From NCBI RefSeq assembly GCF_030246945.1, contig NZ_CP126742.1:1550001-1614000 (forward strand): a stretch of 64,000 nucleotides of DNA. Reading direction: 5' to 3'. The translations under genes and the position numbers were made by a program. Of this stretch, positions 3,882 to 64,000 are shown in pieces. Below the pieces are notes generated by a model. That model ran no database searches. It was not told the DNA's origin and saw only the letters and a program-made list of their open reading frames with translations. The stretch is from Microbacterium sp. zg-Y1090 (GTDB taxonomy: Bacteria > Actinomycetota > Actinomycetes > Actinomycetales > Microbacteriaceae). How positions within the stretch are numbered: the first letter of the stretch is position 1; each line of letters begins with the position of its first letter.

Positions 3882-4646
3882 TCAGTCCTCGGAGTCGTTC
3901 TCCAGCTCGGCCTGCACCTCGGGGGTGAGGTCGAAGTTGCTGAAGACGTTCTGCACGTCGTCGCTGTCTTCGAGGGCGTCGATGAGCCGGAAGATCTTGC
4001 GCGCGGTGTCGACGTCGATCTCGACCTTCAGGTTCGGCACGAACTCCACGTCGGCCGACTCGTAGTCGATCCCGGCATCCTGCAGCGCCGTGCGCACCTT
4101 GACGAGGTCGGACGCCTCGGTGATGACTTCGAACCCCTGTCCGTGGGGCAGGATCTCCTCGGCGCCGGCGTCGAGCACGGCGAGCATCACGTCGTCTTCG
4201 GTGGTGTTCTCCGACGACACGACGATGACACCCTTGCGTGTGAAGTTGTACGCCACGCTGCCGGGGTCGGCCAGCGTGCCGCCGTTGCGGGTGAGCGCGG
4301 TGCGCACCTCGGCCGCTGCGCGGTTCTTGTTGTCGGTCAGACACTCGATCATGAGCGCCACGCCGTTGGGGCCGTAGCCCTCGTACATGATCGAGGTGTA
4401 CTCGACGGCCTCTCCCCCGATGCCCGCTCCGCGCTTGATGGCGCGGTCGATGTTGTCGTTGGGGACCGAAGTCTTCTTCGCCTTCTGCACCGCGTCGTAG
4501 AGCGTGGGGTTGCCGGAGAGGTCGGCGCCGCCGATCTTGGCGGCGACTTCGATGTTCTTGATGAGCTTGGCGAACGACTTGGCACGACGCGCGTCGATGA
4601 CGGCCTTCTTGTGCTTGGTCGTCGCCCACTTGGAGTGGCCGGACAT
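3882..4646 (-). CDS. YebC/TACO1-family regulatory or translation factor
   Basis: A 254-residue member of the YebC/PmpR/TACO1 family, beginning [14 protein letters not shown], the family signature. Members have been described as DNA-binding regulators and, more recently, as factors that help ribosomes through proline-rich stretches; the sequence does not decide between these roles. The ATG follows a TAGACT box (4654-4659, minus strand) by 7 nt, so a leaderless mRNA is likely. The position just upstream of ruvC is typical of actinobacteria, although here the pdx genes sit beyond an inserted decarboxylase gene. Confidence 0.92.
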
Positions 4647-59826: not shown

Positions 59827-59972
59827 TCTATCTCTGGACGTTTACGGACGGCTACGGGGAGTAAACGGACAGGTTCTCGGACAGTGCGGATGACCGCTTC
59901 CGCGCACGCGCAGCGACGGCAAGAGGCACAGGCGAGACGCGGCGGGCCCGCAGCGTGTGGTTCGCTGGTCGG

Positions 59973-60614
59973 ATGGCCGCCGTGATCGCCCCATCTGACG
60001 ACGACGAACCCTTCGACGAGGGCGAAGAAGAGGCGTCCGCCCACGAGGGCGACGTGCCGGCCGACGACACTTCGGGAGAGACCCCGCAGCACACGCGCAT
60101 CCGTTTCACGATTCGTGGCGACGACGGCGAGCCGCTGGACCCGAAGGATCTGACCGCGTTCAAGGGGGCACTCCCCTCGGGTTCGCTGGGACGAATCTTC
60201 GACGACGACTTCATGCGGTCTGTGACCAGCCCGTTCATGCAGCAGACCGAGACGCTGAAGCTCAGCGACTCCCTGATATGGCTCCTCGGCCAGACGTCCG
60301 ACCCCGGTGCCTTCGGGTCCGACGGGCTGAAGGTCACAGGCCTTACTAGCAACGCCTTCTTCTTTCCCGAAATGAATGCTTCGACATCGCAGTTGATCTC
60401 CTCGGCGATCGACCCTTCCGCGTGGGTGAAGGACTACGAGGGGCTCGCCGGCGCCGCATGGATGGAGAACATTCCGCCACTCATCGACACCGGCTGGATG
60501 AAAGACCTGCCCGGACTCACCGGTGTCGGGTCGATCACTGGCAACCTGTTCACGGACGCGCAGATGCGGGCGATACTCCCGGCGATCGTCATGCCAAATC
60601 TCGGCTTGGCGTGA
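59973..60614 (+). CDS. Unrecognised acidic protein ending at an IS element
   Basis: A 213-residue frame with an acidic N-terminus (DDDEPFDEGEEEAS) and a central part rich in Ser, Phe and Gly; SLIWLLGQTSDPGAFG and TDAQMRAILPAIVMP are its most hydrophobic pieces. There is no signal peptide and no family I recognise. The start could also be GTG 59955; neither has a good ribosome site. The last three codons are formed by the IS inverted repeat, and if the IS is removed the frame stays open (LGLA-PILFTPGACMRW...), so the gene has probably been cut. Confidence 0.55.
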   Translation: MAAVIAPSDDDEPFDEGEEEASAHEGDVPADDTSGETPQHTRIRFTIRGDDGEPLDPKDLTAFKGALPSGSLGRIFDDDFMRSVTSPFMQQTETLKLSDSLIWLLGQTSDPGAFGSDGLKVTGLTSNAFFFPEMNASTSQLISSAIDPSAWVKDYEGLAGAAWMENIPPLIDTGWMKDLPGLTGVGSITGNLFTDAQMRAILPAIVMPNLGLA

Positions 60615-60639
60615 GGAACGAACTGGTGACAGGTGCGGT

Positions 60640-61375
60640 TTAGGCCGCGAGTGTGAGCGGCTCGGTTAGCTTGGCCTCGAACTCGATGGGCGTCAACCCG
60701 CCGAGGGTGTCTTGAGCTCGTTGGCGGTGGTACTTCCGCTCGATCCAGACGACGATCGCGAGCCGCAGTTCCTGCCGAGTCGCCCACCTCTGCTGGTTGA
60801 GGACGTTCGTTTGAAGAAGCGACCAGAAGCTCTCCATCGCGGCGTTGTCTCCGGCGGCGCCGACGCGGCCCATCGATCCGACCATGTCGTGACGGCGCAG
60901 CTCGCGGGCCATCGCTCTGCTGCGAAATTGGCTGCCTCTATCGGCATGCAGAATGCACCCGGCGACGTCACCTCGTCGCGCGACGGCGTTGCGGAGCGCG
61001 TCGACGGCGAGTTTCGAGGTCATCCGGTCGGAGATCGAGTACCCGACGATCCGGTCGAATGCACGTCCTTGATCGCGCAGCAATACAACTTGCCCTCGGC
61101 CGTGCGGTGCTCCGTGATGTCGGTCAGCCACACCCGGTTCGGCGTCTCAGCACGGAACGCCGGGCCTCGTCGGCCAGGTATCGGTACCCGGACGTGGGGT
61201 CGTCGTGGTGCGCGTCATGCAACGCGTTGATCCGGTGCGCCCGGAGCACGTCAGCGTCCCGCACAGGGTCGTTACGCCACCTGTAATAGGGCTGGCGGGC
61301 GAGCTTGAGGACCCGACACGACACCGTCACGGGGATCCCCGCGTCGGCGAGCTCGGCAACGAGCGGGTATGTCAT
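60640..61375 (-). pseudogene. IS3 transposase OrfB, broken (DDE integrase domain)
   Basis: The protein is spread over three frames. The N-terminus (MTYPLVAELADAGIPVTVSC) runs to about 61170 and stops. A middle part reading VWLTDITEHRTAEGKLYCC (first catalytic Asp) lies in another frame, and the rest (RIVGYSISD, HADRGSQF with the second Asp, and AAMESFWSLL with the Glu) lies in a third. One base appears lost near 61058 (TCGACCGG where TCGAACCGG is expected), and about 45 codons are missing between YLADEAR and the middle part. No single active protein can be made. Confidence 0.85.
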
Positions 61376-61677
61376 TTTGGAGAGCCACCGAGTTTCAGGT
61401 TCGCCTGCGACAGATACGCCGCAGCCCGCCTGAGAACCTCGTTCTCCTGCTCGAGCAACCGGATACGTTTCTTCAGCTCGCGCGCTTCCGCAGCATCGGC
61501 CGCAGTCTGACCGGGACGATTGCCGTCCTCGACATCGGCCTGGCGGAGCCAGTTCTGCAACGTTGCTTCGCTGATACCGAAGTCGGTGGCGATCTGCTTG
61601 ATGGTGACGCCACTCTCGCGAGGCCTCTCGACCGCGACAACGTCCTCACCGAACTCCTTGGGGTACGGACCGGGCAT
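61372..61677 (-). CDS. IS3 transposase OrfA
   Basis: A 101-residue OrfA with an N-terminal helix-turn-helix (KQIATDFGISEATLQNWL, about 27-44) and a C-terminal leucine-zipper (LKKRIRLLEQENEVLRRAAA). It overlaps the orfB start by 4 nt in the -1 frame at CCAAAATGA, the site where IS3 elements make an OrfAB fusion by frameshifting. OrfA itself is intact. Confidence 0.88.
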   Translation of the reverse strand: MPGPYPKEFGEDVVAVERPRESGVTIKQIATDFGISEATLQNWLRQADVEDGNRPGQTAADAAEARELKKRIRLLEQENEVLRRAAAYLSQANLKLGGSPK

Positions 61678-61841
61678 GATGACATCCTTCCCGCCAGCGC
61701 TCCCAGCACTAACGATCAGTTGTCACCGATTCGTTCCTCACGCCCATCCTCTTCACCCCCGGCGCCTGTATGCGCTGGATGCAGCGCGAGCCGAGGAATA
61801 TCGCTTTCCGATTCCGGGAAGCGACGACCTCCCTATTCGAG

Positions 61842-62009
61842 CTAACGCGGCCCTCCGCGGCGACGGATTACCGTCGCGGTTGCGAGTACGCTCACACCAC
61901 CAAAACCTACGAGCATCATCAGCCCTGCAACCCAGGCGCTCGCGCTGGAAAGCATAAGGACCAATCCTCCAACCGCGGCGATTGCGGCGATCACAGCGAG
62001 CGCTTTCAT
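61842..62009 (-). CDS. Small two-segment membrane protein, candidate immunity protein 2
   Basis: A 55-residue frame (MKALAVIAAIAAVGGLVLML...) with two hydrophobic segments joined by SSASAW and a basic end (ATVIRRRGGPR). GGAGG lies 4 nt before the ATG (62014-62018), a strong ribosome site. It starts 10 bp after the detached RHS tip. Its layout and its end (V/I-RRR) resemble the 63-aa protein at 62550. Role as immunity protein is inferred from position and pairing. Confidence 0.6.
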   Translation of the reverse strand: MKALAVIAAIAAVGGLVLMLSSASAWVAGLMMLVGFGGVSVLATATVIRRRGGPR

Positions 62010-62019
62010 CATTCCTCCG

Positions 62020-62271
62020 TCAGTAGCATGAGTCGTACACGCCCCAAGCGGACCCTACATATCCCGCGAGAGCGAGCCCCACCATAATCGAGCCGCCCAG
62101 CGTCACGGGGGCGGTGAGTATGGCGCCGACCAAGCCCGCAGTCCCCACTAGCGCAAACGTAAACGCCCACCCGCACGACATGTAGCCGGTGGGGTCGGTG
62201 TTGTTGATGGGGTCGCATCCGGCGTAGGCGTATCGGTTGGGTCTGCCGCACGGATAGGTGACGGGTTGCAG
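62020..62271 (-). pseudogene. Detached (orphan) RHS C-terminal tip
   Basis: An 83-codon frame with no start codon. It opens with the RHS core end, NRYAYAGCDPINNTDPTG, which parallels NRYGYAAGDPINNVDPTG in the RHS gene at 62745, then diverges into a different 54-residue tip (YMSCGWAFTFALVGTAGLVG ... VYDSCY) that is hydrophobic and Gly-rich with three cysteines or more. It directly follows the stop of a transposase remnant in the same frame. This is what orphan rhsCT modules look like; expression would need recombination with the full gene. Confidence 0.7.
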
Positions 62272-62448
62272 TCACGCCGCGAGGGCGACGTCGGTGTTCA
62301 TGATTGCTTCGTACTCGATGGGGTCCAAACCGTGGAGCCGCTTCTGTCGACGGCGCCGGTGGTAAGTGCGTTCGATCCAGGTGACGATTGCGATACGGAG
62401 CTGGTCCCGGGTGTCACAAGATCGGCGGTTGAGGACGTTCTTCTGCAG
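62272..62448 (-). pseudogene. IS3-family OrfB C-terminal remnant
   Basis: Fifty-eight codons reading LQKNVLNRRSCDTRDQLRI ... TWIERTYHRRRRQKRLHGLD and ending TDVALAA align with the end of the OrfB at 60640 (LQTNVLNQQRWATRQELRL, WIERKYHRQRAQDTLGGL, PLTLAA). It is a different IS3 element, as about half the residues differ. The N-terminal nine-tenths is missing, and the upstream codons belong to another frame fused at LQ. Confidence 0.82.
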
Positions 62449-62526
62449 CTTGCGCAACTGATTCCGCATGCAGCTCCCGCAGCCGCAGCCGCAGCCGCCG
62501 GCGCCTAGATCCAATCCGATTCCCAT
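62449..62526 (-). other. Start of a Gly/Cys-rich small open frame
   Basis: After the 63-aa gene, GGGGAG stands 5 nt before an ATG at 62526, which reads MGIGLDLGAGGCGCGCGSC then MRNQLRK before running in frame into the transposase remnant. The alternating Gly-Cys stretch is unlike its surroundings. It may be the head of a third small gene of the RHS cassette cut by the IS, or chance. No family recognised. Confidence 0.3.
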
Positions 62527-62549
62527 GGCGACTCCCCAGCCGGTGCGGC

Positions 62550-62741
62550 TCAACGCCGACGCATAGTCACGACGATTCCGACTGTCGACGCGAGGAGCAG
62601 TAATACACCCAGGACGGGCACCGACCAGCTTGACGCCCACCCGAGAGCGAGAGATCCGACGATCAAGATCGCTCCCAGGATCAATCCAGCTGAGTAGACG
62701 ATTACCAGCGCGGCCTTCGTAGCGTTCTTTTGCATGGTCAT
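62550..62741 (-). CDS. Small two-segment membrane protein, candidate immunity protein 1
   Basis: A 63-residue protein (MTMQKNATKAALVIVYSAG...) with two hydrophobic segments (about 9-30 and 37-58) joined by GWASSW and ending VVTMRRR. It starts 3 bp after the RHS stop, so translation is coupled. Small two-pass proteins directly after an RHS tip are in the place where immunity genes sit. Base composition is lower in GC than the core genes. Function is inferred only. Confidence 0.65.
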   Translation of the reverse strand: MTMQKNATKAALVIVYSAGLILGAILIVGSLALGWASSWSVPVLGVLLLLASTVGIVVTMRRR

Positions 62742-62744
62742 TAC

Positions 62745-64000
62745 CTAACTGAGCGCCTGCGTAACTAGTGATCCGACGAAGCCCCCAATGGCGCCCGAAA
62801 CAAAGCCCGCTAGAGCACCCGATCCACAGCCAGCTAGAGCCGTCGGCCCGCCTGGTGATGTGGCTACAGCGCCGATGGCACATCCGGCTGCCGCGCTACC
62901 CACGCCGCCCGCCAGGCCAGCGACGGACGCGTCTGAGAGGCTAATGCGCCCAGTGGGGTCAACATTGTTGATGGGATCACCGGCGGCGTAGCCGTATCGG
63001 TTGGCGTTGCTGGGGTCGAGAGGGCTGTCGAGGGTGTCTTGTTGGGTCCAGCGGCCGAGGGTGGGGTTGTACCAGCGGTTTCCGAAGTGCACCCACCCGG
63101 TGGCGCGGTCCTGGATGCCACCCTGGAACAGGAACGGGTTCTGGGAGAGCCCGGTGCCGCCGCTGTTGGAGGTGACGGTCGGGAGCCCGTACGGGTCGTA
63201 CTGGTAGGTGTAGCCGGTGCCGGCGAAGTCGCGGAGGATGGCGGTGGGGTTTCCTGTGCCGTCGTAGACGTACAGGCTGACGGTGCCGGTGGAGGTGCGC
63301 AGCATCAGCGGCTGCCCGGTGACCGGGTCGTTGTCGACGTACGCGGTGACCGAACCGATCTTGGCTTGCTCGATGACGGGTTGGCCGACCTGGTTGGTGC
63401 GACCGTAGACGAGGTTGTAGGTGGCGGTGGGAGTCTGCTGCTGCAGCACCTCGACCTGGCTGGTGCCGGCGTACTTGTACCCGAAGGTCCCGCTGGCGTT
63501 GGTGGCAGAGGTCATCTGCTCGGCGCCGTTGTAGGCGTAGGTGCCTGCGGTGTCGGCGGTCATGTTGCCTGCGCCGTCGAATGTGTACCCGGTGGTGGTG
63601 ACCTGGTTCGCCGCGTTGAAGGTGAGGGCCTGTGAGGTCGTGGTGCCGCCAGTGGTGCCTGCGGTGAGGCGGTTTCCGCGGGCGTCGTAGGTATAGGTCC
63701 AGGTGGTGGGGTTGGTCCCGCCGGTCTGGGAGGCGCCGGTCAGTCGCCCTGCCCCGTCGTAGCTGTAGCTGGTGACCTGCCCGGTGATGTTGTTGCGTTC
63801 CCATTGCAGCTTCGCCCGGTCGCCGGATGTCTGCGCTGCGCAGGTGGGGGCAGGAGTCCCGGTGTTGTAGCAGTAGGAGATGTCGCTGATCGTGGTGACG
63901 GTGCCATCGTTGGTCATCGACTCCGCGATGGCGCGGCTGACTCGGCCGCTGGCGTCGTAGTCCTGGTGGGTGTGGCCGCGCCAGCTGGTGTTCGCGGCGT
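62745..64000 (-). CDS. RHS-repeat protein with hydrophobic C-terminal tip (5' part beyond window)
   Basis: The last 417 residues of an RHS/YD-repeat protein; the frame is open to the window edge. YD-type repeats are visible (SYSYDGAGRLTG, TYTYDARGNRLT, GYTFDGAGNMTA, YQYDPYGLPT). The RHS-associated core is FLFQGGIQDRATGWVHFGN and RWYNPTLGRWTQQD, closing at NNVDPTG. After it comes a 67-residue Gly/Ala-rich tip (ISLSDASVAGLAGGVG ... GSLVTQALS) with no known enzyme motif and two or three possible membrane-spanning stretches. RHS proteins wrap and deliver C-terminal toxins; the tip here may insert into membranes. A 63-aa membrane protein follows. Confidence 0.85.
   Translation of the reverse strand, partial: AANTSWRGHTHQDYDASGRVSRAIAESMTNDGTVTTISDISYCYNTGTPAPTCAAQTSGDRAKLQWERNNITGQVTSYSYDGAGRLTGASQTGGTNPTTWTYTYDARGNRLTAGTTGGTTTSQALTFNAANQVTTTGYTFDGAGNMTADTAGTYAYNGAEQMTSATNASGTFGYKYAGTSQVEVLQQQTPTATYNLVYGRTNQVGQPVIEQAKIGSVTAYVDNDPVTGQPLMLRTSTGTVSLYVYDGTGNPTAILRDFAGTGYTYQYDPYGLPTVTSNSGGTGLSQNPFLFQGGIQDRATGWVHFGNRWYNPTLGRWTQQDTLDSPLDPSNANRYGYAAGDPINNVDPTGRISLSDASVAGLAGGVGSAAAGCAIGAVATSPGGPTALAGCGSGALAGFVSGAIGGFVGSLVTQALS

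Follow-up and report, generated by a model that had tools for sequence, protein, structure and literature searches.

The right-hand end of a 64,000-nucleotide (nt) stretch of the Microbacterium sp. zg-Y1090 genome (contig NZ_CP126742.1, positions 1,550,001 to 1,614,000; hereafter the window) carries part of an RHS gene and, behind it, two pairs of short coding regions, each made up of a C-terminal segment that follows an RHS core end (a tip) and a small membrane-type protein (its partner). We think it likely that this is a polymorphic actinobacterial RHS toxin locus, in which tips predicted to be disulfide-bonded would damage membranes from outside and membrane proteins would confer immunity. 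The features of the locus are the following:

62745..64000, minus strand: 3' part of the main RHS gene, running on past the window edge
62949..62969, minus strand: core end NNVDPTG of the main RHS protein, its Asp lying in an invariant column (D995 of P0003) of 53 aligned relatives
62748..62948, minus strand: main tip, 67 amino acids (aa), a predicted membrane-acting toxin; stop at 62745-62747
62550..62741, minus strand: partner 1, 63 aa, with two hydrophobic segments, a predicted immunity protein; ATG at 62741
62239..62451, minus strand: remnant of an insertion sequence (IS) of the IS3 family, comprising the C-terminal end of orfB and the right terminal repeat (PF13333, E 3.7e-6; blastn to plasmid IS3 copies)
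62185..62238, minus strand: relic of a second RHS core end, 18 aa, NRYAYAGCDPINNTDPTG; TIGR03696 positions 58-76, E 7.8e-4, below the curated cut-off
62023..62184, minus strand: second (orphan) tip, 54 aa, with two cysteines (Cys), one near each end; stop at 62020-62022
61842..62012, minus strand: partner 2, 56 aa, with two hydrophobic segments; ATGATG start with a GGAGGA ribosome site ahead

The main RHS gene enters the window from the right and is a single intact open frame of 1108 aa (L009:7748-11071 plus stop), the start of which resembles a signal peptide by eye. Its product matches the Rhs core profile TIGR03696 (E 1.2e-18) and PF05593 (E 1.1e-13), and its YD-repeat core is matched by RHS_repeat, YD_repeat_2x and Rhs_assc_core, the match to PF25023 falling below the cut-off. 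The main tip is hydrophobic, rich in Gly, Ala and GxxxG motifs, and has two Cys in its middle; the ATG of partner 1 lies 3 nt past its stop codon. About 310 nt downstream of partner 1 the relic begins, in a frame that lacks a start codon ahead of the orphan tip (an ATG that forms the second tip residue has no visible ribosome site), and the second ATG of partner 2 follows 10 nt past the stop of that tip. These coordinates confirm the layout given in the first-pass annotation of this stretch, which had described an RHS end with a 67-aa tip and a two-segment protein 3 nt on, then a startless second core end with a 54-aa tip and a second small two-segment protein with a good ribosome site; the IS3 remnant between the pairs and the even number of Cys in the tips had both been overlooked.

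Using the core end as a query, we found matches in 7 of 366 genomes at the genus level, in 21 of 398 at the family level and in 15 of 396 at the order level (each count includes the own genome); the RHS group of this core type is rare and scattered. When the last 124 residues served as query for a protein search, 70 RHS proteins were recovered, whose mean pairwise identity was 65% in the core (110 residues, 69 proteins) and 24% in the tips, compared to 22% for shuffled tips, with only 7 of 2346 tip pairs exceeding 40%, and in G678 and G1104 the junction between core and tip was sharp. The locus thus shows one of the marks of a polymorphic toxin system, a conserved core bearing a hypervariable C-terminal tip, so that the earlier proposal that tips vary while the core is kept was borne out, and the possibility raised with it, that the tips are conserved C-termini of ordinary RHS proteins, was not. 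On a tree of the 69 cores, tip classes changed 23 times, compared to 25.7 times in shuffles (as low in 11 of 200); they are scattered over the core tree, yet not wholly random. A Pfam scan of 10 tips gave no match above the cut-off. With the main tip as query, matches at E <= 0.01 were obtained in 6 of 149 genomes, the own genome among them, and of the five others an RHS tip was confirmed only in G009 (49%, E 1.7e-7), where it is carried by a different RHS core, the rest being weak (E 1e-4 to 0.009, two with internal stops). Purifying selection was considered and rejected: homologous pairs gave pN/pS of 0.38-0.61 or dN/dS of 0.19-0.48 (ratios of nonsynonymous to synonymous change), their synonymous sites being mostly saturated.

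The second pair has the anatomy of an orphan module, that is, a startless core fragment, a tip and an immunity-like gene downstream of a full RHS gene, which supports its earlier assignment as an orphan tip/partner module. As described in PMC3967940, the Rhs orphan modules of Salmonella LT2 are built alike, with a startless core-end fragment, another tip and its own immunity-like gene; compared to that description, the window module differs in its short shared core, its IS3 border, its Gram-positive host and its membrane-type tips. The live core and the relic have 55 nt in common, at 80% identity and with a longest exact run of 12, and the TIGR03696 match of the second core end spans 19 residues. 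The first base of the relic, 62238, directly adjoins the end of the IS3 remnant at 62239 (the terminal repeat was mapped with L104), the remnant sitting in the gap between the two pairs. Twelve plasmid IS3 copies listed by blastn were 74-78% identical to it; the right terminal repeat of a Gordonia plasmid copy reads TGTCACCTATCCCTGCACCAGGCCC, and the window copy ends CGTCACCTATCCGTGCGGCAGACCC at 62239. Because this terminal repeat adjoins the relic, the second core is cut off by IS3 insertion or by an IS-side deletion. At the M. oleivorans P10 locus, the tip shares 36% identity with the orphan tip over 47 codons, and the partner shares 37% with partner 2 (dN/dS about 0.28).

The second pair had been taken for a swap cassette, and a functional reserve, which recombination can still join to the live core so that it replaces the main tip, as for the Salmonella orphans, would agree with the orphan-module anatomy, with the ribosome site kept ahead of partner 2 and the open frame, and with the longer tandem core ends kept in relatives. 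Activation of the Salmonella orphan, however, is reported to have used 522 bp at 95% identity (PMC3967940), and the homology between relic and live core falls short of what recombinational replacement would need. Together with the IS3 end that borders the second core end, this makes a functional reserve unlikely, and a working swap cassette in this genome was rejected on both grounds. The shortness and divergence of the shared core lead us to read the second core end as a relic, and the second pair as probably a displaced fragment rather than a ready swap cassette: it would be an older pair, displaced from a core and cut off by IS3 insertion or an IS-side deletion, that may now serve as an immunity relic or be a decaying fragment.

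Tandem core ends are better preserved in several relatives. They are kept in G328, G678, G479, G527 and G1104, and in G441 the core is matched a second time over a shorter stretch. In G479, G527 and G1104 the first gene is whole and a core fragment comes behind it, the fragment tip differing from the first tip in G479 and G1104 (in G527 the fragment tip alone was read); the first gene of G678 is full length yet spread over three frames, and G328 has fragments only. The two core ends of G1104, where the first gene is intact, are 95.5% identical over 398 nt, and the first two of G678 are 99.2% identical over 399 nt, the tips behind them being unrelated in both genomes. Moreover, the pair that a whole RHS gene carries in G434 is homologous to one borne by a 142-aa core fragment in G479, a genome of a different genus (tip 65%, partner 32%), and two further pairs, homologous to each other (tip 55%, partner 50%), stand on a 279-aa core fragment (G273) and on a core end of 17 aa (G328). 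Relatives such as G1104 would thus be better swap-cassette candidates than the window, and their tandem core ends offer natural material for watching tip replacement. We also considered a fixed border of orphan fragments, as the window relic and the G328 orphan both start near RYAYAG, and rejected it because the window border is an IS end and in other tandem core ends the open core extends 24 to 246 aa ahead of RY.

The most regular feature of the tips is their Cys content. We pooled 70 protein tips with 41 locus tips (111 entries) and kept 100 non-redundant tips of 40-130 aa; of the 11 entries dropped, six were more than 70% identical to another tip, the P10 tip among them (its counterpart in the set is by eye the tip of P0017, a 958-aa RHS protein), and five fell out by length (P0067, 143 aa, 3 Cys; L060, 20 aa, no Cys; L064:4330, 144 aa, 3 Cys; L073:6397, 20 aa, 1 Cys; L087, 464 aa, 6 Cys). 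All 100 tips had an even number of Cys (none in 3, two in 86 and four in 11), compared to 50.8 +/- 5.0 even and 26.4 +/- 4.4 with two expected by chance at the same Cys frequency (binomial). Odd counts were confined to three of the entries dropped by length, namely P0067, the L064 frame in which tip and partner run together, and the stump of 20 aa at L073. No parity rule was seen in the partners, of which 8 of 35 have one Cys, or over the final 110 residues of the core, where 22 of 67 have one. In 54 of the 86 two-Cys tips each end had one Cys no more than 12 residues away (random 6.0 +/- 2.4), and in 29 the two were at most 31 residues apart, as in the main tip of the window. GxxxG motifs numbered 362, compared to 239 +/- 12 in shuffles, Ala and Gly made up 37% of tip residues, and the net charge was negative in 79 and positive in 8 of the 100 tips. 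Disulfide bonding outside the cytoplasm would be the simplest reason for so strict a parity.

The four-Cys tips P0034, P0036, P0041, P0069, P0070, L081, L111 and L113 were mostly less hydrophobic than the others, some of them with a leading CxxxC (for instance YCFGICFG), and perhaps have a different fold.

We then turned to the genes that follow the tips, using 37 of the 41 locus tips for the count. An open reading frame (ORF) of at least 40 aa starts within 160 nt of 36 of the 37, and 34 are followed by an ORF of 45-130 aa with at least two hydrophobic segments, compared to 117 of 3000 random positions under the same rule; these counts fit the earlier suggestion that tips and partners are membrane-bound. 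Tip and partner similarity were compared for 35 of the 41 locus tips (four being out by length, one for lack of a follower and L082 because its follower has no segments) and were correlated, with a Mantel r of 0.50 that was reached by none of 5000 permutations and that remained 0.50 after core similarity was removed (none of 3000). Similar tips tend to have similar partners, in keeping with the expectation that each tip travels with its own small protein, and the position, membrane class and co-variation of the followers would all fit specific immunity genes. The alternative raised in the first-pass annotation, that the small proteins occur independently of RHS genes, found little to sustain it, as partner 1 gave, besides itself, a single weak match (31%, within a 492-aa frame) in 361 genomes of the genus. 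For partners 1 and 2 of the window, a protein database search yielded no relatives at E <= 0.001, with only 3 and 8 candidates, respectively, sharing words with them; known families were rejected for both, all matches being sub-threshold (e.g., DUF4282, E 0.0043). With their small size and divergence, the two-segment partners can slip past a homology search.

At one locus (L064, in G328; core end at nt 4330, counted on the reverse complement), a single 144-aa frame encodes both tip and partner with no stop between them, a natural fusion, and a further partner-like gene without a tip comes next, by eye like the G187 partner (L063).

Both properties were examined again in a second sample, consisting of RHS genes found with another core type, for which an even Cys number and a membrane-type follower had been stated beforehand for short tips. 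It comprised 25 places, four of them already in the set; the 21 others held 12 short complete tips, eight large ones and one that ran off the contig end (L131). Five lay at places returned earlier (L121, L125, L126, L130 and L142), of which only the L126 tip had been seen before the prediction, and since L142 has the core type of the window, 11 of the 12 short tips stand on other core types. All 12 short tips (40-130 aa) were even in Cys (two in ten, none in one, six in one), and eight were followed by an ORF of 45-130 aa with at least two segments. Among the eight large tips (170-466 aa), two had an odd Cys number, one had a follower with at least two segments and one had no follower. The short tips of L121 and L125 have followers lacking segments, and their C-terminal halves look soluble. 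At L140 (G828), a 98-aa tip with six Cys has the motif CNNHDNCYD, reminiscent of secreted phospholipase A2, and the 132-aa protein behind it has four hydrophobic segments. Tips of a given kind thus tend to have followers of a matching kind.

Several observations weigh against this reading of the locus. Hydrophobic segments were counted with a plain hydropathy window, and among the 37 locus tips one lacked a follower, one had a follower without a segment and one a follower with a single segment. The co-variation of tips and partners rests mostly on a few homologous pairs: when pairs with a tip z of 15 or more were left out, r dropped to 0.14 (reached by 8 of 3000 permutations; Spearman 0.09), and partners reached z >= 6 in only 4 of the 9 tip pairs that did so. 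In the window itself, no strong ribosome site is present ahead of partner 1, and the similarity of partner 2 to the P10 partner reaches only z 4.6, that of their tips z 4.2. Finally, many copies may be decayed, since a frame of more than 1000 aa was found at only 2 of 9 core-end places within the genus (that of the window and one of G059), and in G187, G211, G273, G328 and G343 only core fragments were mapped at the loci examined.

In the last five genomes (L062-L066: G273, G187, G328, G211 and G343), the core fragments come with or without a tip and partner, and none of these genomes gave a match to a whole gene with this type of core. The G273 tip is carried by a fragment comprising core residues 763-1041, and that of M. 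oleivorans P10 (G211; L065 / L021) by core residues 923-1041, split over two reading frames. Such lone modules may be kept for immunity or may be decaying.

The pattern of followers also bears on a quite different role for the tips, namely as membrane anchors or plugs that fix the RHS shell at the surface of the producer itself, with the small proteins as membrane docking partners. Hydrophobic, Gly-rich C-termini followed by membrane proteins would fit this role too; anchors, however, need not differ in nearly every strain, as tips barely more alike than their shuffled versions do, nor be stored as tandem alternatives. In the second sample, furthermore, a follower of any length with at least two segments stood behind 9 of the 12 short tips and only 1 of the 8 large ones, so that the follower goes with the kind of tip, and we consider an anchoring role improbable, slightly more so than a functional reserve. 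It is more doubtful still that the even Cys number is a by-product of common descent or of the way in which the tips were collected. The tips do come mostly from one core family of one order, and the query that yielded 70 of the 111 entries contained a two-Cys tip; yet the near absence of tip pairs above 40% identity speaks against common descent, all 37 locus tips of 40-130 aa were even, of which all but the window's own and two others (found with a 417-aa query) came from core-only queries, and the second sample was even throughout. An action of the tips in the cytoplasm of the target, as for the usual Rhs enzymes, with their hydrophobicity only a secondary trait, is equally improbable, for although the Rhs tip activities given in PMC8636562 are enzymatic, the tips here are short, rich in Ala and Gly and even in Cys, have membrane-type followers and gave no Pfam match above the cut-off in the 10 scanned.

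We therefore return to outside-acting membrane toxins with membrane immunity proteins, and to how their shell might release them. By sequence, the core of the main RHS protein is related to solved shells, namely the teneurin-like 9pt5 (E 2e-33), Rhs 8h8a (E 3e-31) and Tse5 8cp6 (E 1e-20). Self-cleaving Rhs proteins are described as having two DPxGL-type motifs about 17 residues apart, and in P. laumondii Rhs1 the Asp of the second motif, DPLGL, is reported to be required for C-terminal cleavage (PMC8636562). In the window protein the second motif of this type reads DPTG, and the place of the first is taken, there and in relatives, by QQDTLD, which has no proline; the Asp of QQD and that of DPTG are both invariant in 53 relatives. 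In the teneurin-like protein of B. inaquosorum, according to PMC13018210, a hydrophobic C-terminal domain (CTD) is cleaved and enclosed, and this CTD stops the growth of E. coli and admits propidium iodide only when exported.

Based on these data, we propose the following sequence of events. The RHS protein would be exported via its signal peptide and fold as a YD shell, as its homology to the solved shells suggests. The tip behind the DPxG core end would form its disulfides in the oxidising space outside the cell, as the Cys parity points to, and would then be cleaved at the core end, where the two invariant Asp lie, and stay within the shell as in the solved relatives. On contact with another cell, the tip may enter the cytoplasmic membrane from outside and cause leakage, and the small membrane protein encoded behind each tip, to judge from its position, membrane class and co-variation, would bind and neutralise it in the owner's membrane. 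Where tandem core ends persist, recombination at the core/tip junction would swap the tips, as the pattern in some relatives suggests. This reading bears on how RHS tips might reach their targets in Gram-positive bacteria without an injection machine: if the tip becomes oxidised outside the producer and works at the outer face of the target membrane, passage into the cytoplasm would be unnecessary.

RHS toxins, orphan modules, pore-forming Rhs tips and membrane immunity proteins are already known. One close parallel, the B. inaquosorum protein, is likewise a Gram-positive YD shell with an enclosed, cleaved hydrophobic CTD that damages membranes only when exported, and almost all genes of its type have a gene immediately downstream; as described, its CTD Cys bonds to the FN-plug of the shell, whereas tips of the window group carry an even Cys set of their own, and, unlike that protein of 2237 residues, the window RHS is half as long (1108) and its group has many alternative tips with two-segment partners (PMC13018210). 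Tse5 of Pseudomonas aeruginosa also delivers a pore-forming tip from an RHS shell after self-cleavage at the core end; it is a Gram-negative type VI effector, and its sequence relation to the window protein was seen for the shell only (PMC10684867). The ionophore toxins of contact-dependent growth inhibition (CDI) resemble the present system, by description, in their diverse membrane-depolarising tips and small, highly polymorphic hydrophobic immunity proteins, and are reported to differ in CdiA delivery, membrane-protein receptors and five-helix bundles (PMC11630599). The Cdz bacteriocins of Caulobacter are small, contact-dependent glycine-zipper killers with a small membrane immunity protein, described as free proteins of 84-86 aa with type I export (PMC5380434); a class IIb or Cdz-type bacteriocin, a free small peptide with its own exporter, was rejected for the window, where the live tip is the C-terminus of the RHS protein. 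Tox-WTIP, classed by Zhang et al. 2012 as a pore-forming polymorphic toxin from proteobacteria, shares two membrane-spanning helices at the end of RHS-type proteins and is set apart there by its RxxR and W-TIP motifs (PMC3482391); since RxxR and Wx[ST]IP are absent from both window tips (read by motif), identity with it was rejected as well.

Searches of the open-licence literature turned up no description of an actinobacterial tip class that combines strict Cys parity with two-segment partners. A broader reading, which in our judgement is about evenly poised between right and wrong, is that secreted actinobacterial RHS shells carry undescribed, hyperdiverse, disulfide-bonded and mostly acidic glycine-zipper membrane toxins, in effect shell-packed bacteriocins, each with a dedicated two-segment antidote and exchanged through tandem core ends, and that the even-Cys rule marks outside-acting tips and would separate them from cytoplasmic ones by sequence alone. 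Cys parity would in any case be a cheap and testable sequence mark.

Two further IS3-family elements lie around the locus:

60603..61749, minus strand: second IS3-family element, downstream of the orphan pair, with 29-nt terminal repeats (86%), orfA open and orfB in two frames
L009:11564-12871: third IS3-family element, with two open frames and terminal repeats of 23 nt (96%), lying about 490 nt upstream of the RHS gene

With the third element upstream of the RHS gene, insertion elements border the locus on both sides. A 219-aa frame at 59955-60614 on the plus strand ends within the terminal repeat of the element at 60603, so a host gene may have been cut there. At L009:15314-17153, two adjacent similar genes, presumably alpha/beta hydrolases, share stretches of 75-78% identity and may represent a tandem duplication.

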